Assembly: GCA_903854335.1 (NCBI GenBank)
Contig: CAINVY010000003.1
Coordinates: 1 to 64,000 of the forward strand
Origin: an uncultured Candidatus Peregrinibacteria bacterium
GTDB taxonomy: Bacteria; Patescibacteriota; Gracilibacteria; Peribacterales; Peribacteraceae
Direction: 5' to 3'
DNA: 64,000 nt
Both the position numbers and the translations under genes were made by a program. The notes beneath the pieces were generated by a model, which had not been told where the DNA came from, searched no databases, and was given only the letters and a program-made list of their open reading frames with translations. Below are positions 36,058 through 54,153 of this stretch, in pieces (positions within the stretch are counted from its first letter, which is position 1; the number at the start of each line of letters is the position of its first letter).

Positions 36058-36134
36058 GGGCAATTAGCTCAGCTGGCTAGAGCGCCACATTGACATTGTG
36101 GAGGTCACTGGTTCAAGTCCAGTATTGCCCACCA
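36058..36134 (+). tRNA. tRNA-Val(GAC), insertion target of the mobile element
   Basis: A 77-nt cloverleaf: acceptor GGGCAAT/ATTGCCC, discriminator A, encoded CCA. The anticodon stem CCACA/TGTGG holds the loop TTGACAT, giving anticodon GAC. Its last 10 bases (TTGCCCACCA, 36125-36134) recur at 44902-44911. The stop codon of the convergent serine recombinase lies inside the T-arm of this gene. Confidence 0.95.
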
Positions 36135-37801
36135 GATCTCTTCTTCTTTCCGAAGACATCCTCAATATCCTCTTTGGTTAGCCCCTTTGTGGTTCTACCC
36201 TTTTTCGGTAGGCTCGCGAACTTCTCAGGTACAAATCGGAAATAATACTGCACGGTGATATCCCACTTCGTTCGCTTCCCACCTGTTTCCCTTGGAGTTC
36301 GATCGAGTTCGACGCGGTCAATAAACAGATCAATCAGAATCTTCTTCTGTTTTCGACCTAGCTTGTCCAAATTGTATTTCACCGTCTTCGCTGCGCTCCT
36401 CAGTCCTTCGATCTCCTGTTCTTGTAGACCTGCCACTAGAAGCTCCTTCCCGATATCCTCGATTCGCCCTTCGATACGGTCAACCTCCTGCTGAACCGCC
36501 GCAGTCTTCTCGCTCGCCCTCTCGGCTCCATAAACACCATTGTCATATCCTTCCTCAATACGCTCCATTTTCAACTCCAGATTTGCCTTCTTTTCTCTCA
36601 ATTTCAGCAATTCCTCATCCATATCCTCCAAGCGGCTTTTTCCGTAGCGCTCATAATTGAAATACTCGCGGATGAACACTTCCGGATTCTTCAACGCCAA
36701 TTTCACCCGCCCCCATGCAGCTTCTTCAAGAGGTTCGGTTGGAACCTCGAAAACGGGATACTGCTTTCCATCCTTCTCAAACTGCTTCCTTCGGTAACTC
36801 CTCCCCCCCTTCATGCGGGGCTTGCCGGAGAACTTGGGGTGATGTGGCAAGGAAACATCATAGATCTTCCCTGAGAGCAGATACGTATGATCCGTCGCTG
36901 TCTTTGCCTTTCGGGTAGTGCGCTTCTCCTGAGCCAGATTCCATGTCATTTCCGTGATGCAGGGAGGTATGGCAACGATCGTCCATTCCTCTTCCGGCAA
37001 CGCGTTTCCTTCCTCATCTTTCGTTACCGCCGCAAACTCTCCTCGATAAAGAGAGTTTTGGATCATGTCTTCAATATGATGCACCGTCCATTTCCCTGCC
37101 CCCTTGCGTTTGTAGTACGCACTCTGTGGTACCCCCATATCGTTGAGCCGTGTCGCGATCTGTCCATATCCCATGTCCTCATATACGTACCAATGAAAGA
37201 TCTTCTGAACCCGCTCCCTCTCTTTTGGGATGATCTCTAACTGCGTCCCTTTCCCGGAAGGATTCTTGATAGGCTTATACCCGTAAGGGATGCGCGTGCC
37301 GGTGTAGTTGCCCATCTCTGCGGATGCCACAATTCCCGAACGTGTTCGGCTCTTGATGAGTTCTCGCTCAAATTGAGCAATGGCACCGAAAATCTGAAAA
37401 ATGAGATTCCCAATGGCTCCATTGAAGTTGATATTCTCCTGGAGAGATATGAAGCTGCATCCCGCCTTCTGCATACGCTCGAAAACCTCCAGCAAGTGCT
37501 TCAAGCTGCGCGAGAGACGGTCAATCTTCCACACGAGTACCGCGTCGAACTTCTTCTCGTCTACGGCCTTCAAAAGTTTTTGCAAACCAGCCCTCTCAAC
37601 CTCCGATCCCGTGTGCACGTCCTCAAAGATCCACTCCTGTTTTGTCTCAAGATTGAGGGCTTTGTTTTGCTCCACATACTCTAAAAGGCGCTTCCGCTGC
37701 GATTCCAGACCATAACCGTCCATTTTCTGTTCCTGAGTAGAAACACGAATGTAAATGGCAACGCGCCGCTTCCTAGCCATGTCTTGTGATTGAATCTCCA
37801 T
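36113..37801 (-). CDS. Large serine recombinase (integrase)
   Basis: 562 residues. The catalytic resolvase domain starts 'AIYIRVSTQEQKMDGYGLESQ' (nucleophile Ser21), with 'DAVLVWKIDRLSRSLKHLLEVFERMQ' and 'QIFGAIAQFERELIKSRTRSG'. A recombinase domain ('PYGYKPI', 'IFHWYVYEDMGYGQIATRLNDMG') and a coiled-coil region (about 410-470) follow. The zinc-ribbon position ('YLLSGKIYDVSLPHHPKFSG') has no CxxC pairs, which is unusual for the family. The last residues ('GGQYWT') and the TGA are encoded by the tRNA-Val 3' end. Start: ATG 37801 or the Met at 37780 (MARKRR), closer to typical relatives. Confidence 0.93.
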   Translation of the reverse strand: MEIQSQDMARKRRVAIYIRVSTQEQKMDGYGLESQRKRLLEYVEQNKALNLETKQEWIFEDVHTGSEVERAGLQKLLKAVDEKKFDAVLVWKIDRLSRSLKHLLEVFERMQKAGCSFISLQENINFNGAIGNLIFQIFGAIAQFERELIKSRTRSGIVASAEMGNYTGTRIPYGYKPIKNPSGKGTQLEIIPKERERVQKIFHWYVYEDMGYGQIATRLNDMGVPQSAYYKRKGAGKWTVHHIEDMIQNSLYRGEFAAVTKDEEGNALPEEEWTIVAIPPCITEMTWNLAQEKRTTRKAKTATDHTYLLSGKIYDVSLPHHPKFSGKPRMKGGRSYRRKQFEKDGKQYPVFEVPTEPLEEAAWGRVKLALKNPEVFIREYFNYERYGKSRLEDMDEELLKLREKKANLELKMERIEEGYDNGVYGAERASEKTAAVQQEVDRIEGRIEDIGKELLVAGLQEQEIEGLRSAAKTVKYNLDKLGRKQKKILIDLFIDRVELDRTPRETGGKRTKWDITVQYYFRFVPEKFASLPKKGRTTKGLTKEDIEDVFGKKKRSGGQYWT

Positions 37802-38109: not shown

Positions 38110-38383
38110 CTATTATAGAGCGGAACTTGCATTTTATGTAAATAGTGTCCCCAGTGTACTCTGAGGATAGAGGAGCACTGTTTTTTGCTGTGCGTAGAAC
38201 AAAAAGTCGAAATGAAGAACGTGTTGACGGAGATGCCTTCTGACTTGGATCATTTTTTCATAAAAATGAAAAGGACGAAAAGTAACATGCCAAATACGAT
38301 CGACAACGCCGCCGCGCCTGCGATCAAAGTTGAAACAAGAACCGCTGACCTTTCGTTTCGGAGAAAGGGCGGTATGCTTTCCT

Positions 38384-38507
38384 CGATCCCATCGTTGTAG
38401 GCGTATTCGCTTACGACCCGGCTTACCCGCAAATCAGAGCAAAAAGGGGCATCCTGCCTCTGGTCATCGCTCTGATAGGCGGGAAACCGCTTACAACGAT
38501 GGGATCG
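38384..38507. repeat. Large imperfect palindrome (cruciform or structured RNA)
   Basis: The outer 16-bp arms are perfect: CGATCCCATCGTTGTA (38384-38399) pairs with 38492-38507. Inside, CCCGC (38426-38430) pairs with GCGGG (38479-38483), ATCAGAGC (38433-38440) with GCTCTGAT (38469-38476), and an apical 7-bp stem closes a TCC loop (38445-38461). It lies about 45 bp upstream of the first cargo gene start. Candidates are a leader RNA, an attenuator, a MITE or a replication/nicking hairpin. Confidence 0.7.
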
Positions 38508-38551
38508 CCATGCGGGGTGTCCCTTCTTGTGCGATTTCTTCTCTCATCGTT

Positions 38552-39532
38552 ATGAAAAATATGCGATTCCTCTCATGGATACTGATCCCAACATTCTGCT
38601 TTTCTATCTTTGAGGCAACTGCCGCGCAGCCGCAAAATATGACCAAACTGACGCCTCAACAGAGAGTTGCCCTTCGTAAGTCCTTGCGACTACAAAGGCA
38701 CTCAGGCTCACCTGTAACTCAACAATCATCGGCATCCTCCGTTTCCAGTTCTTCATCGTCTTCGGTGCAGTCCATGTTTCTTCCCTACTGTAAGAAATCA
38801 AGTGATGCACAGTGGAACTGCAACGATTGGTCTGCGTGTTCTTATCACGAAGGTGATGAACTAGCATGGCCTCCCACACAACCGACATGGACGCAGACTG
38901 GCTACTGCTATCCCGCCGACGGCAGCACATGTCGTGGTCGCATTAGCCCCAATGTCCGAAACTGCACGCCAACTACCGATGAACAACAAGCTCAAGATGC
39001 TCAGCAGCAACAACAGACACAGCAATACAATCAACAACAAGCAGCGCAGCAACTGCAACAGTTACAGCTCGATACACAGCACAATTACAAGACCATGACA
39101 GACAATCTCACGAAGATGAACAGCCAGCTTCCTTCGTTCGAGGGGGCAACTTCATTGGAGCTATTTTCCGTTGTCAACAAGTACACGGATGAAGTATCGA
39201 AAATGAAAGTGTACGTCGATGCCATCTACCAGTTGCAACTGTCAGACCAACCTGCGATCAACAGCATCGTCGATGCTACCAATACACTCGTCGATCAGTT
39301 CAATACCATTGCCGGATCCGCAGCCGATCTCCAATTACAACAAGTCCAGGAAGAGAATCAGCAACTAGAGCAGCAGCAACCGCAACAGCAGCAATCGCAA
39401 ATTGACCAGCAGCTACAGGCGCAGAAGCACAAGCAGGATTGCGCCAACCTACGAACATTTCTTTTCGCTCGTTATGGTGCCTTTGGATCGTCAGAAACAA
39501 TGGATCGTTACCACCAGGCTGGTTGTCCATAG
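38552..39532 (+). CDS. Secreted Ser/Gln-rich protein with TSP1-like Cys module
   Basis: 326 residues from ATG 38552. The ORF-track start at 38330 would translate through the palindrome. Signal peptide 'MRFLSWILIPTFCFSIFEATAA', then a Ser-rich linker. Next comes a Cys module 'CKKSSDAQWNCNDWSACSYH' continuing to 'GYCYPADGSTCRGRI', resembling a thrombospondin type-1 repeat (WSxC). A long Gln-rich coiled-coil region and a C-terminal 'CANLRTFLFARYG' segment follow. Probably exported to the surface. It is followed 27 bp later by the metalloprotease-like gene. A function in adhesion or host contact is conjecture. No known family. Confidence 0.65.
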   Translation: MKNMRFLSWILIPTFCFSIFEATAAQPQNMTKLTPQQRVALRKSLRLQRHSGSPVTQQSSASSVSSSSSSSVQSMFLPYCKKSSDAQWNCNDWSACSYHEGDELAWPPTQPTWTQTGYCYPADGSTCRGRISPNVRNCTPTTDEQQAQDAQQQQQTQQYNQQQAAQQLQQLQLDTQHNYKTMTDNLTKMNSQLPSFEGATSLELFSVVNKYTDEVSKMKVYVDAIYQLQLSDQPAINSIVDATNTLVDQFNTIAGSAADLQLQQVQEENQQLEQQQPQQQQSQIDQQLQAQKHKQDCANLRTFLFARYGAFGSSETMDRYHQAGCP

Positions 39533-39559: not shown

Positions 39560-41152
39560 ATGCTATCTGGACAAAACCAAAGGCTGAGACCGAGCGACAT
39601 TCGTCAGATGTTGGAAGAAATACAGCGACGATTGCCCGAGAGACCCACGGCAGTCGATGAGCCTTTCGTCGTACCGGAACGTTTGATGAAATCATCATGG
39701 GTCAGTTCCTCCAATATCTCGTTGCCATCGAAATCGCTACAAGAAATCGCGAACCTCATGGCTGCATATCTTGGAATCATCACGCCGGTAGAGGTTAGAT
39801 ACGTGAACACATCCTTCGGAACAGCAGGAACATATCGCGTCTTGGGTCACTCGTACCGAGTCATAGAAGTGGCAGCAACGAACTCGGATTTCAATGTCGA
39901 TCAGATCCTCGCAACACTCGCGCACGAATCGACTCACCACTACCTTCATGAGCACAAAGTACAAGTTACTGAGATCATGACGGATCTCACCGCTGTGTAT
40001 CTCGGATTCGGTGAACTGTTGTATCGAGGTTACAAGACAGTTGAGCGGTACAGATCACGAACGAAGGTGGGCTACATTCAATGGCAAGATGTCAAACTCG
40101 CAGTACAGATGGCGGTGGAAATGAGGGGATGGAATATCCCTTTGCGACCATGCCCATTCTGCAAGAGTCACATTCGCCATAACATAGAGCAGTGTCCTCA
40201 CTGTCATCGTATTCTACGAGAACATGTAGAGCGGAAGGAAACGGTACCGCAAGCACCGCCGCATCGACAGAAGCGCCGACACATCACGTTCCTGAAAGAC
40301 AACTTTGCGTACTGGTTATCGAAAATATGGGATCATTTTTTATACATCGAACTTGCGGCAATGGGGCTGCTCGTTCTCCTCGGTTTGTATTTGGCTCACA
40401 ACCAGTCACTTCGCCAATCCTCCGATGTTCCTCTTCCTGTGGTCACGGAAGCCGTGAAGCAAAGTGAAGATGGGTTCGGTTCTCAGCCAAGAGAATATGG
40501 AAACATATTTCAGTCCGTTGGCTCTGCTCTCGCAAGCAATGTGCAGAGCGTCGCGACATTTCAGGGTACGAAACTCGACTACTTGGGAAGAACCGTAAAC
40601 GAATACAAATACGACAATGCGGATCTGGACATAGCTCTGTTCCAACAAAAATGGGATGCACTCAAGAGCGAATACGACCTGCTCCGAGTAGACCTTGAGA
40701 ATGGGAATGTGCAGGATCGAACGAATGTCCTCAACTCCTTCAAGACCGATCTCTTCTTTTGCGCCAACGAACTTTGGGACAGAGCCTATGAAAACGACCA
40801 GATCGAAACGATCTCACAATTACAAACGGATCTCTCCACAATCATCCATAGCCCTCCTTTCGCTCGGTATTTGCAGGAATCACAGCTCTCACAACCCGCT
40901 TTCGATGTGCTCAGTGGCATGACTGATTCCATTGGATTCCTGAGAACAAAGTATTCCCTGAATCTTCTGGAACGTAATTTACAAACGTGCCGCTCCAATC
41001 CAGATTGTTCCGATGAGAAGCAACTCGTGGATCATTTCAATCAGCTCCTGCCTGACTACAACTCGAACATCAACGATGCTTCTACGATGTTCTCCCAGTT
41101 CATGAAATTGGTGGATGTGTATCTCCTCTTCCCCGGGCAAAATACTCTTTAG
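39560..41152 (+). CDS. Membrane-anchored HExxH metallopeptidase-like protein with zinc ribbon
   Basis: 530 residues. N-terminal domain with a gluzincin-type site: 'ILATLAHESTHHYLHEHKVQ' (HExxH near residue 122) and a downstream 'VTEIMTDLTAVYLGFGELL' helix that could give the third ligand. Then a zinc ribbon ('CPFCKSHIRHNIEQCPHC', about 197-214), one membrane segment ('FLYIELAAMGLLVLLGLYLA', about 260-280) and about 240 residues of helical, probably extracytoplasmic sequence. No signal peptide, so the peptidase domain is expected inside the cell. Family not identified; the shape recalls minigluzincins of toxin and mobile-element contexts. Confidence 0.65.
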   Translation: MLSGQNQRLRPSDIRQMLEEIQRRLPERPTAVDEPFVVPERLMKSSWVSSSNISLPSKSLQEIANLMAAYLGIITPVEVRYVNTSFGTAGTYRVLGHSYRVIEVAATNSDFNVDQILATLAHESTHHYLHEHKVQVTEIMTDLTAVYLGFGELLYRGYKTVERYRSRTKVGYIQWQDVKLAVQMAVEMRGWNIPLRPCPFCKSHIRHNIEQCPHCHRILREHVERKETVPQAPPHRQKRRHITFLKDNFAYWLSKIWDHFLYIELAAMGLLVLLGLYLAHNQSLRQSSDVPLPVVTEAVKQSEDGFGSQPREYGNIFQSVGSALASNVQSVATFQGTKLDYLGRTVNEYKYDNADLDIALFQQKWDALKSEYDLLRVDLENGNVQDRTNVLNSFKTDLFFCANELWDRAYENDQIETISQLQTDLSTIIHSPPFARYLQESQLSQPAFDVLSGMTDSIGFLRTKYSLNLLERNLQTCRSNPDCSDEKQLVDHFNQLLPDYNSNINDASTMFSQFMKLVDVYLLFPGQNTL

Positions 41153-49380: not shown

Positions 49381-52300
49381 ATGGACACCATCCTCTCCCC
49401 TTTCGGCTTTGCGCGATCGCTGCCCGAGCGCGAGCGTCGGGAACTCTTCGTGAGCAATCCCGGCTCTGCGAGCTCCTCCGGTGATCCAGAGAAAAAAGCA
49501 GAGCGGCAACGAGGACGTGATAGAAAGAACACCATCGTGAGGGAAATGGCCGACGCGTACGGCGAGATTTTGAAAGCGGCAGTCCCCGAATCCACTCCGC
49601 AGATGAGCGCACTGATCGCCGATACCGACCTCGCGGAGAGAGTGGGATTCGACCAAGACGACGCGGCCAGAGAAGCTGCTCGCTTGCTGAACATTCCGAT
49701 GGGAAGCGACGGGCCATGGCGCAGTGCCGTTACGAGTAAAATTACGCCGTGGGAAACGCAAAGCATTGAGAGAGAGATCCGCACGAGGAGCGAGGATTAC
49801 ATGCGCTCGACCCTCGCCGATCCCACACAGGCGTGCAACGTCGAACGGGAACTGCGCGAGCAAATCAATCGCGGGACATTTCTCGGGGAAGCATTGGAGC
49901 GTCGCGTGATGCTCAAGGTGGGGGCAGAGGAACGTCTTTTGTCCCAGGACGATCAACGAGCGCTCGAGACAACCTTCGGCGAACTGCAGAAAACGGCTGA
50001 TCAGATCAATAGAGGGAACGTCGCCTTGCTCCTCTCGGGAACGAAAGAAAGTATCGCAAGCCTGACTGAAAAAATTGAACCTCAGGATCTCCGTGAGAAA
50101 GTCGCACACATTCTCGAGACAAATCCCACGGACGGATGGGCAATCTCCATCGCACTGAATCTCGAGGAATCCATCGCGGATCCTCTGCAGCGGTTGCGCA
50201 TGCAACAGTTGCTTGTCGAGACGATGAACGCTCTCACAAAATCAGAGAATTTCGGAGCGACGAAGCGTGACGAATCATCGAGAAGCTGGAGCGAATGGCG
50301 ACGCAAATACATCGCCACGCTTGAAGAGCGAAGCACGACGCTGCGCGAGCACATCGAGACCGCCCTCGAACAGCGCTCCATTAAATTCCTCCAAGCCGAT
50401 AACGACCGGCTCAAGACGTTCGTGACCACACTTGGGATTGACCCCTCGCAGTGGGATACGGGGAAGTCCGCAAGCACAGCCCCTCTGGCGGAAGAAGCGT
50501 GTTTCAAGAGATACGGCGTGAGCCTGAGCGGGGTCGGGAAGTTCTTTACGGATCGCACGCAAGCAATCGAGGACGCTGCGTCGGACCTCGATCCCAGAGA
50601 CACATCGACCTTCGCCGACCGTGCGCAATCGCTTGGCAAACTCCTCGCCGATCTCGAGAAGGAAAACAACTGTTTCGATCCGTCCGACGCCGAACACTTC
50701 CTCGTGGAACAGCGACAGGAACAGGAAGATACGGAACAGTGGGCCTATCGCATCGGCACCCGCCTCAACGAAGCGCTCTCCACCGATCAGGCGCAGCGCG
50801 CGGCCATCACTCCCCTGCTCAAGCAGATCCACGGCAACGAAGATCCCTGGCAAGACCTCACGCTGCTGCGCGCGCATCTGGGAAAGTATGCCGCGACCAA
50901 GGGAGACAAGGCGAGACTCGCCGCACTCAGAAAAGATTTCCCTCAATGCATCACACCCTCGCAATTCAGCGAAACGGAGCGCGATCAATTGGAAGCGATG
51001 CTCAGCCTCATCGCGGAGCGACGCAGCAGCGCGATCCGATCGGGAACCAAACTCGTCGATGCATACGAGAAGACGAGACAGTCATCCCCCGAAATGGATG
51101 CCATCAGCAGAGGGCAGGAAGAGACGAAGCTGCGTATCCAGAGTCTCCTCGGCACGATCATCGAAGACACCAAAGACACACCCGTCTTCCACACGCTGAA
51201 GCTCAAACATCGTCTCACGCAGAGGGTGGGAGTTATCGAGGGCAATGTCATTCGCGCGTCGGCTGCCGCAGACATGTCCGCAAGGGAGCCGGAAGAAAGC
51301 AGGCGCGCGCAATTCGAAGCGGAAGCGAAGGACTGTTGGGCCAAGGCTCAGACGGAATCGCAATCGCTCCAGAGTGTGGCCGACGGCATCCGCGAAACGT
51401 CCAAGAACATCCTGGAAGAGGAAATCCCAAGCGATAGGGACGGATTCTACAGTTACGAGGATCGGAGGATTCACATCCGCAGGAGCCTAGATCCCGCAAT
51501 GCGCGCATCCGTCATCAAGCACGAGAAGGGCCACGCCGTCCTGCATCAGCTGCGCCGATCCGGCCTCCTCCCCTTCCTGCTCATTTCCGAAGAGAAGGAA
51601 CTGTCGGACGCGGGCGGCAAGGGCGACGAACACTTCTGGGAGATGCTGGAGAGTCTCTCCGGCTACTACCAGATCTCGCGATGCGAGGAGAAGTTCCGCG
51701 CCGCGGCGGTGCGTGAATACGGACAGGATGCTGCAGCCGTGGAGGCGCGCACGAGAGACCTGCGCAGGGAATTCCTCCTCGAAGAATTCGAAATCCACTT
51801 CGCCGAGTGGCAAGAATCGAAGACAAGACCCGCTCCCCGCACAGCCGAGGAGCAGACGGAACGAGATCTCTTCGCGATGAAGGAAGCTGCGCATGGCTCG
51901 CGCAAGCCAAATCAAACGACCGACGTGCCAGACGACCTCGGTATCGAACTCGCGAGTGCATCGAACCCACTCATCGATCCCGAGGATGCGGAAGAGGGAT
52001 CAGAACCTGAACACGTAGCCACATCAGAGCAAGAAGGCATACCAAACATCAAACAAGAAATCATTGATACGCAGCGCATGATGAAAATCATCACATCGTT
52101 TCAATCCGCGTATCATGACGACCCCGAATCGCAAACATTCCTCTCAAACATCGCTCCAGACGTACATATTTGTGAAGGAAAGCTCAGTGATCTAGAGAAG
52201 CGTTTGTACGAAAAAGGAGGAGATCCTGAGGCAGATCAGAAGTACACCTCTGATGTAAGAAAACTCTCGGGAGCCGTAACTATACTCCATGATCGCGTTA

Positions 52301-54153
52301 AGAAGCGGGATAATAACTATATGGATATCTCCGGCCGCGCACGGAAGACGAAGGCGCCGGGATTCTTCGATCGCATCCGTTTCATGAGCATTCGCGACAT
52401 CATGAAGCTCTACAAGGATACGGTGGAAGACTTCAAGACGATCTGGGGACGAAACCAGGAACGACTGCTCCAAGACGTGGGCGGCGTGCTCAATGATGCC
52501 CTAACGAAAGCAGGTGGCAAACTGCCTGTGGTCGGCAATCGCTACTTCGCAAAACTGCGCGGCTACCACGAGCGACGCTACGCCGGTGCAGAATTGGACT
52601 CGGTCGAGAAGTGGAAGAAATCCATGGAACGCTGGGACAGCCACGAAATCCTCGATACCATCTCTCATTCCGGAAACCTCGATCAAATCCGCGGCGCCAT
52701 CGAAATGCTCTGCGACCGCGGAGAAATGGATTGGAATGATCGCGGCGTCTGGAACACGCTTCGCAGAATCTCAAACTTCAACATGCCCTTCGAAGCGTGC
52801 GAGAGAGACGACGTGCTGAGGGATATCTGGCTTCGACGCATCGTGTCGGATATCTGGAAGGATAAAGAACTCTTCTACAAGTGGCGCACGAATAACGACT
52901 CCCAGACAAACAGCCATAAGCAGAAATTCATCCAAACCGTCGACCAATTCAGCAACGTGAACGGGGGTCTCTCCGGCAGTCTCGAGAGACAATTGACACT
53001 CTATTCGGACTGGAAGGACGCATCGGACAGGGCCGGCCATCACCTCCCCTTCCCCGACGAAGTGAAACCGCACCTCTACGAGCAAATCATCGAGTACTCC
53101 ATCAAGAACGGAAAAATGACCATGGAACAGAAGATGTACTACCTCGTGCAAGGCGTCGCGTCGGGCCTGCTCTCCGTCGAGCGTCTGCGCGCTCTCGCCG
53201 GACAGAACGGCGGCATCATCAACTACTTCCCGTACATCGAATACTTTTACTGCAAGAACAACACCCTGCCCGAGATCAAGAAAATCGCGGCTTCCCTCAA
53301 AGAGAAGAAAACAGCGGACAACCCCAATGCCGAATTCAAACCAGGCCTAAAAACAACCTTGTGGCTCCACTACAAAGTGGCACGCGAGGAGGCCGTTCGC
53401 GCCCGTCTCTCCAAGGGTTCTGCACGCTCCTCGGACTCGGGTGTCACCATGGACCACGAGGATATCCCCTTCTTCATCACGCAAATGGACTACAAGGAAA
53501 TGGATAACATGGCGGGCATCGTTTCTGGAAAACGGCAAAAAGTTACACCGGAAGGGTGGAAGAACGCCTACGTCGGATTCAACTCGAAATTCAGAGTGTT
53601 TGCGAACTGCGCGCTCCTCGAAAAACAAGGACTGGAACGTCTCTCTCGCTCCGATACGCGCATGCTCGCTCAGAACCTCGGCGCGTACATCTACATGGAC
53701 AATATTCTGACGGGAACCGTGCAGGATAATGATTCAAGACCTGGACTCAGCGAATACCAGATGAGCACACGATCTCCATCAGGAGCAAAAAACACGGTGA
53801 CGAGGGAATACCGCGACAAGATGTGCGATTTCATCAAGAATCTTTACGATTCCGGAATACTCAAAGACATCAACTGGAAAGCTCTCGGCGTTGGACCTGA
53901 GGAGCTCCTCCCGCTTTACTCAACAGAATATCGTCGTAATCTTGCCAAAGATGATGATAAATACCATAAGCTCATCACCCAAAGGATCTTTCCCAAATTT
54001 GCCGTAGAACTCGAAAGAGTCATTTTGGAGCATAGCGACACGTTCAAAGACGTTCTGATGAACAATGAAAATAAATTCCTGAACGAAGGCGGAAGTGAAT
54101 CTCTCAACCGTGATACCGTGCAGGAGCTCGTGAAAGAAGGAAACCTGAATTAA
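49381..54153 (+). CDS. Giant 1590-residue protein with one HExxH motif
   Basis: No signal peptide and no membrane segment. The N-terminal 700 residues are mostly charged helices. An HExxH site, 'ASVIKHEKGHAVLHQL' (His714-His718), is followed by a Glu-rich helix ('FLLEEFEIHFAEW', about residue 800) that could supply the third zinc ligand. A disordered acidic linker (about 860-900) then leads to a 650-residue helical C-terminal region with 'GFFDRIRFMSIRDIMKLYKDT'. I recognise no family. The stop-start spacing to the preceding membrane-protein gene is 1 bp. Possibly a cytoplasmic metallopeptidase with a large recognition part. Confidence 0.75.
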   Translation: MDTILSPFGFARSLPERERRELFVSNPGSASSSGDPEKKAERQRGRDRKNTIVREMADAYGEILKAAVPESTPQMSALIADTDLAERVGFDQDDAAREAARLLNIPMGSDGPWRSAVTSKITPWETQSIEREIRTRSEDYMRSTLADPTQACNVERELREQINRGTFLGEALERRVMLKVGAEERLLSQDDQRALETTFGELQKTADQINRGNVALLLSGTKESIASLTEKIEPQDLREKVAHILETNPTDGWAISIALNLEESIADPLQRLRMQQLLVETMNALTKSENFGATKRDESSRSWSEWRRKYIATLEERSTTLREHIETALEQRSIKFLQADNDRLKTFVTTLGIDPSQWDTGKSASTAPLAEEACFKRYGVSLSGVGKFFTDRTQAIEDAASDLDPRDTSTFADRAQSLGKLLADLEKENNCFDPSDAEHFLVEQRQEQEDTEQWAYRIGTRLNEALSTDQAQRAAITPLLKQIHGNEDPWQDLTLLRAHLGKYAATKGDKARLAALRKDFPQCITPSQFSETERDQLEAMLSLIAERRSSAIRSGTKLVDAYEKTRQSSPEMDAISRGQEETKLRIQSLLGTIIEDTKDTPVFHTLKLKHRLTQRVGVIEGNVIRASAAADMSAREPEESRRAQFEAEAKDCWAKAQTESQSLQSVADGIRETSKNILEEEIPSDRDGFYSYEDRRIHIRRSLDPAMRASVIKHEKGHAVLHQLRRSGLLPFLLISEEKELSDAGGKGDEHFWEMLESLSGYYQISRCEEKFRAAAVREYGQDAAAVEARTRDLRREFLLEEFEIHFAEWQESKTRPAPRTAEEQTERDLFAMKEAAHGSRKPNQTTDVPDDLGIELASASNPLIDPEDAEEGSEPEHVATSEQEGIPNIKQEIIDTQRMMKIITSFQSAYHDDPESQTFLSNIAPDVHICEGKLSDLEKRLYEKGGDPEADQKYTSDVRKLSGAVTILHDRVKKRDNNYMDISGRARKTKAPGFFDRIRFMSIRDIMKLYKDTVEDFKTIWGRNQERLLQDVGGVLNDALTKAGGKLPVVGNRYFAKLRGYHERRYAGAELDSVEKWKKSMERWDSHEILDTISHSGNLDQIRGAIEMLCDRGEMDWNDRGVWNTLRRISNFNMPFEACERDDVLRDIWLRRIVSDIWKDKELFYKWRTNNDSQTNSHKQKFIQTVDQFSNVNGGLSGSLERQLTLYSDWKDASDRAGHHLPFPDEVKPHLYEQIIEYSIKNGKMTMEQKMYYLVQGVASGLLSVERLRALAGQNGGIINYFPYIEYFYCKNNTLPEIKKIAASLKEKKTADNPNAEFKPGLKTTLWLHYKVAREEAVRARLSKGSARSSDSGVTMDHEDIPFFITQMDYKEMDNMAGIVSGKRQKVTPEGWKNAYVGFNSKFRVFANCALLEKQGLERLSRSDTRMLAQNLGAYIYMDNILTGTVQDNDSRPGLSEYQMSTRSPSGAKNTVTREYRDKMCDFIKNLYDSGILKDINWKALGVGPEELLPLYSTEYRRNLAKDDDKYHKLITQRIFPKFAVELERVILEHSDTFKDVLMNNENKFLNEGGSESLNRDTVQELVKEGNLN

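Follow-up and report, generated by a model that had tools for sequence, protein, structure and literature searches.

The window analysed here is a stretch of 64,000 nt from an uncultured Candidatus Peregrinibacteria bacterium. In it, the first-pass annotation had marked a 124-bp multi-stem palindrome (38384-38507) ahead of the presumed cargo genes of a mobile element. The locus raises the question of whether this palindrome works as DNA or as RNA, and what it does for the genes behind it. The palindrome was confirmed and greatly exceeds chance expectation. Its inverted-repeat arms, 38384-38408 and 38483-38507, are 25 nt each and 88% complementary, which bears out the inverted repeat as annotated. 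Folding energy against shuffled sequence, proposed as a check, gave the same answer: the plus-strand RNA fold of 38370-38520 reached -72.7 kcal/mol, compared with -47.5 ± 3.7 kcal/mol in dinucleotide shuffles (z = -6.8), and 0 of 200 shuffles folded as well. The minus strand of this interval also folds well (z = -6.2). The arms are not duplicated coding sequence, a possibility that the annotation had named as refuting. A TTG-started open frame (38330-39532) spans the palindrome; it was rejected as a coding reading, since indels in homologues break any shared frame.

Relatives were found by searching 74 genomes from the same family at the nucleotide level. The palindrome occurs once in its own genome (1.17 Mb, 13 contigs), and relatives in other genera match it over ~130 nt with identities of 90% (G054), 84% (G029) and 82% (G020); some further relatives retain only the 3′ half. 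Covariance models R1 and R2, built from 12 and 21 sequences, score the window copy at 139.2 and 132.6 bits, respectively. At a threshold of at least 60 bits, the models define a family of 23 members in 19 genomes. Eighteen of these genomes are Ca. Peribacteraceae, with one to three copies each; the remaining one, G437, belongs to another Patescibacteria class and carries a member at 106 bits. Weak candidates at 25-35 bits occur in G017 and G540, both possible members, and in G714, a doubtful one. An R1 search of other genomes in the class, run with stricter filters that lose weak matches, returned none above threshold. Phage and plasmid records gave chance matches only, all outside the structure. 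Viral contigs, searched with three core patterns, yielded nothing, or else partial chance matches that the models scored at ~21 bits or less.

The strand and the 5′ end of the RNA are indicated by a promoter element directly upstream:

38373-38378, plus strand: -10 box TATGCT; a gap of exactly 6 nt separates it from the initial G of the RNA.

Nineteen of 21 members carry a TANNNT hexamer at -12 to -7 relative to the outer stem P1, leaving exactly 6 nt between the hexamer and the stem. At any other distance from 0 to 39 nt, the hexamer was found in two members at most, which is the background level. The first P1 base is G in all 21 members (G38385 in the window), and the copy in G437 keeps the same spacing (TACTAT-TTCGGC-G). 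Judged from the sequence, a -10 box at this fixed spacing predicts that the transcript begins with the palindrome's first base, G38385. Such a start fixes the strand and the 5′ end, and favours an RNA over a DNA function. The RNA always lies on the sense strand relative to the downstream open reading frame (ORF). A plus-strand ATG frame of ~63 codons (38212-38402) overlaps the promoter and ends within P1; it is probably a chance occurrence.

The conserved RNA and its local helices are as follows:

38385-38541, plus strand: whole conserved leader RNA, from covariance models and homologues; predicted +1 at G38385.
38385-38398, plus strand: 5′ strand of the outer stem P1; double compensatory changes in all 10 modelled P1 pairs.
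38493-38506, plus strand: 3′ strand of P1, from arm complementarity and covariation.
38397-38414, plus strand: hairpin P2, GUAGGCG-UAUU-CGCUUAC; a local hairpin is found here in most members.
38434-38440 with 38469-38475, plus strand: P3; double changes in 6 of 7 pairs.
38446-38451 with 38455-38460, plus strand: P3a; 98% paired.
38479-38490, plus strand: hairpin P4, GCGG-GAAA-CCGC, with a GNRA tetraloop; 21 of 25 members have a GNRA with CC or CT behind it.

The annotated palindrome is present, though the conserved unit, at ~157-160 nt, exceeds it: a conserved strand beyond the interval (38515-38529) pairs back into the central hairpin. Similarly, the inner stems described as three nested elements do exist, but in the fold supported by the family P2, P3/P3a and P4 are set around a junction closed by P1. 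P2 competes with an inner extension of P1, and the minimum free energy (MFE) fold of the window RNA favours the longer P1. The P2 loop and its closing pairs often read RC-UUUY-UGY; the alignment is poor in this part and column covariation is not applicable, so that P2 is based on the local hairpin seen in most members. P3, spanning 38434-38475, encloses P3a and a conserved internal loop with near-invariant residues, AAAAA / GGUCAUC in the window and ARAAA / GGUCAA as the family form. Both modelled pairs of P4 vary on one side only, and this stem therefore rests on conservation, not covariation. One truncated copy (L033:6340-6372, in G015) holds only the promoter, P2 and the 5′ half of P3, and reflects either decay of the element or a break in the assembly.

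Pairing in homologues, another check proposed with the annotation, is kept, and it covaries across family members. For P1, P3, P3a and P4 together, 96.7% of cells were paired and double changes occurred in 17 of 25 pairs, as counted in a 21-member alignment that was fitted to the model and is biased towards it. A plain MAFFT alignment of 12 sequences gave the same pairing result. The covariation score was 0.462, compared with 0.155 in shuffles and no more than 0.060 with partners slid by 1-3 columns. There is a strong case that the palindrome encodes a conserved structured RNA.

Beyond the local stems, the family shares long-range pairing between the central hairpin and the sequence downstream of P1:

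38444-38454, plus strand: site 1, made up of the 5′ strand and the loop of P3a; forms one side of the long-range helix.
38515-38525, extending to 38529, plus strand: site 2, the 3′ side of the long-range helix; ends ~25 nt before the start codon.
38462-38464, plus strand: internal-loop GGU of P3, with GCC 38507-38509 directly after P1 as its partner.

Across both helices, 97.2% of cells were paired and 5 of 14 pairs showed double changes; the short GGU/GCC helix was paired in 95% of cells, with double changes in two of its three pairs. On every measure, 0-2 of 500 shuffles scored as high. Compensation between sites 1 and 2 takes several forms: A-U for G-C at one position (L028, L052, L081), G-C for A-U (L050, L058, L083), C-G for G-C (L083), G-C for U-G (L057), and the replacement of two A-U pairs by G-C and U-A (L084). 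A second 3′ stem, hairpin B, is formed by site 2 in many members; as a defining part it was rejected, since the window and roughly half of the family lack it.

P3a and the long-range helix share one strand, and both are conserved. For the window RNA, the site 1/site 2 duplex taken by itself is calculated at -18.9 kcal/mol compared with -6.5 kcal/mol for P3a alone. A single strand with two conserved, mutually exclusive pairings is the usual signature of a switch. Because the two helices use the same bases, the RNA looks built to switch, and we infer that it may alternate between P3a and the long-range helix. Alternatively, the long-range helix could be a stable pseudoknot that coexists with a rearranged P3 and is not an alternative state. 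No terminator follows site 2 in the window, and with no U-tract terminator downstream, the suggestion of an attenuator in the strict sense (terminator/antiterminator) finds no support here. The AUG, ~25 nt past site 2, remains unpaired in the MFE fold. Since the start codon is sequestered in neither fold, the link to translation is indirect. The 29-bit candidate in G540 (L082:4536-4679) keeps the site 1/site 2 pairing; a terminator-like stem comes next, with no sense ORF, and it may be a free-standing form of the RNA.

The genes behind the RNA were examined across the family. Of the 22 members with enough contig, 21 have an ORF on the same strand that begins no more than ~65 nt from site 2, most commonly 24-28 nt after it; the exception is L064, where the nearest long ORF lies at +194. 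In the window, two ORFs follow:

38552-39532, plus strand: first downstream gene, 326 aa; start codon 10 nt past the end of the model.
39560-41152, plus strand: second downstream ORF, 530 aa, with no confident family; possibly in one operon with the first.

The first gene most likely starts at ATG 38552, because indels in homologues break the longer frame, 38330-39532. Its product is glutamine-rich and coiled-coil-like, with an N-terminus resembling a signal peptide. No Shine-Dalgarno sequence precedes 38552; this is not special, since more than half of the window's long ORFs lack one at all plausible starts. Among 70 genomes of the family, only G014 has a homologue besides the window's own; there, too, the gene directly follows a copy of the RNA, 52% identical to that of the window.

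Elsewhere the downstream genes are diverse. Three type III restriction-modification operons of two Mod lineages follow the RNA (L026, L028, L032), as does a 1569-aa DUF4011/helicase/nuclease protein classed as PADLOC candidate system PDC-S37 (L081). Related membrane proteins, grouped by similarity and without a Pfam match, follow in L027, L029 and L030, and further down in L064; from their sequences they look like glycosyltransferases. An MBOAT acyltransferase (L066) and an SGNH/GDSL-like protein under Pfam's cut-off (L035) were also found, and the remaining genes encode lipoprotein-, signal-peptide- or membrane-type proteins. At L027:2372-5541, two tandem membrane-protein paralogues (63% identical) lie behind one RNA copy, the second with a similar N-terminus at its start as well. 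At L030:7060-7180, a 12-codon frame, MSMSSKTLSIIV, lies between the RNA and the glycosyltransferase-like gene, and its stop overlaps the next start (TAATG), which suggests either a leader peptide or coupled translation. The start ATGAGCATGAGCAG was seen again in L026 and L028, before unrelated proteins.

Comparison of the RNA with protein genes suggests exchange between genomes. The RNA of the window is ~86-90% identical to that of G054, from another genus (90% over 132 nt), while the M50 proteases of the two share only 55% protein identity. For the congeneric G014, the order is reversed, at 64% for the protease and 52% for the RNA. The downstream genes of the window and G054 are unrelated. 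This mismatch, together with the unrelated genes, suggests a leader that is passed from genome to genome and from gene to gene, and the RNA appears to be a promoter-plus-leader module moving between genera. A serine recombinase gene (36113-37801, minus strand) adjoins the window copy of the RNA. It overlaps the 3′ end of tRNA-Val (36058-36134), an arrangement typical of integration at a tRNA. A search of the genome for a second att copy of this recombinase at tRNA-Val found none, only other tRNAs. Related recombinases, of low identity, lie near only three other RNA copies (L064, L067, L068). The annotated tie to the cargo of an element was not established, as no recombinase lies in the vicinity of most related RNAs. 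Further along the window, a 1590-aa ORF (49381-54153) has only marginal matches to metallopeptidases (IrrE/M78-like).

Taken together, the palindrome is probably the DNA for a structured, cis-regulatory, riboswitch-like 5′ leader RNA, in which two pairings would set downstream expression. Of the functions suggested at first, regulatory RNA is the one favoured by the conserved strand, the promoter at fixed spacing, the covariation, and the place directly before start codons. The cis-regulatory reading is further supported because a gene family present in 2 of 70 genomes follows the RNA both times, even though the two RNAs are only 52% identical. In the proposed mechanism, a sigma-70-type promoter would start the transcript at G38385, and the first ~157 nt would fold with P1 closing a junction of P2, P3/P3a and the GNRA-capped P4. 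Once transcribed, site 2 would displace P3a and form a long-range helix of 11-15 bp with the P3a 5′ strand, beside which the short GGU/RCC helix would form. The choice between P3a and the long-range helix, made ~25 nt upstream of the AUG, would then set downstream expression, most likely at translation. A ligand or protein sensed by the P3 internal loop (ARAAA / GGUCAA) may bias this choice. Several observations count against parts of this reading. The downstream genes share no single function, and the weak G540 member, with its terminator-like hairpin and no sense ORF, fits a free-standing RNA. For the switch, the start codon is free in both folds, and the MFE prefers the longer P1 to P2. A more specific form of the leader reading, plausible though somewhat short of an even chance, is an orphan riboswitch-like class of the Candidate Phyla Radiation (CPR). 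Its signal would be a second messenger, a protein, or a cue from host or phage, and it would control movable genes for defence, surface modification and secreted proteins, being exchanged between genera separately from them.

The lack of a common downstream function, and the patchy distribution of the genes, would also be expected of a constitutive leader. Here a rigid, 5′-paired, pseudoknotted RNA would guard the mRNA from 5′-end-dependent decay or aid ribosome binding, with no switching or sensing, and so serve exchangeable genes that bring no expression signals adapted to the host. With P1 starting at the predicted +1, the 5′ end would be double-stranded. However, near-invariant residues in the P3 loop, and a strand kept for two exclusive helices, exceed the needs of a stabiliser, and we consider this explanation unlikely. 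A free-standing or processed small RNA, acting in trans or bound to protein, would have its downstream genes by coincidence. The defined 5′ end, the compact fold and the terminator-like stem in G540 suit such an RNA, but the short, fixed ORF distance in nearly all members and the co-occurrence of a gene family with the RNA do not, nor does the lack of a terminator after site 2 in the window. This makes it improbable.

Less probable again is a DNA hairpin for recombination or transposition that moves genes, such as a gene-cassette site, a single-strand transposon end or a palindromic MITE. Differing genes do follow the RNA, and the 90% identical copy in another genus, whose M50 protease is divergent, would fit transfer of this kind. 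Against it, the covarying helices vary in sequence, and G-U pairs conserved on one strand and the exactly spaced promoter also speak against the replication or nicking hairpin offered by the first-pass annotation. No tandem arrays accompany the one to three copies per genome, and no second copy was noticed at the far end of the genes. The MITE proposal fails on the genome search, which returned a single copy and no repeat family, with one to three per genome in relatives. Integron attC was rejected: the core RYYYAAC/GTTRRRY is absent from the window and several members, is a chance occurrence in P1 where present, and no cassette arrays were found among the RNA matches. A self-cleaving ribozyme heading the mRNA, suggested by the multi-helix junction, pseudoknot and conserved unpaired residues, is scarcely credible, as the 5′ end coincides with the expected transcription start and not with a cleavage product, and no Rfam ribozyme family matches.

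The RNA belongs to an apparently undescribed structured RNA family. It is the same type of object as the families of Rfam release 15, and differs in matching none of them: even at permissive thresholds, no family reaches its gathering cut-off, and the best matches are at chance level (SNORA64, 14.5 bits where 35 are required). Among the papers searched, none joined the names Peribacteria or Peregrinibacteria with a riboswitch, structured RNA or RNA motif. In a 2024 review, riboswitches appear only as tools to be engineered (PMC11665869). Little is recorded of RNA-based gene control in the CPR, and the family supplies some two dozen natural leaders whose start and structure are defined and whose position suits reporter fusions. 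If the sensing holds true, a regulon of restriction-modification, a large defence protein, glycosyltransferases, acyl-modifying enzymes and secreted proteins would point to the phage/host-cell interface, a central open question for CPR bacteria.

Among known systems, ToxI of type III toxin-antitoxin modules is likewise a pseudoknotted RNA upstream of a gene, and some members of the present family stand in a defence context. The RNA here is, however, a single unit and not a tandem repeat, with no terminator between RNA and gene, and the scans made found no ToxN-like genes downstream. The 5′ stabilising leaders of ompA and erm type have a base-paired 5′ end directly at the transcription start. 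This feature is shared, but the RNA here is much more complex, having a pseudoknot and conserved sequence. The closest likeness is to riboswitches and orphan candidates, in the 5′ UTR position, the junction with a conserved internal loop, the GNRA hairpin, the covariation, and a long-range helix that would compete with a local stem. It differs from riboswitches in having no consistent metabolic gene downstream and no visibly sequestered start codon. Based on these comparisons, we would place the palindrome in a new family of structured leader RNAs, riboswitch-like or switchable, and as a riboswitch only a candidate.
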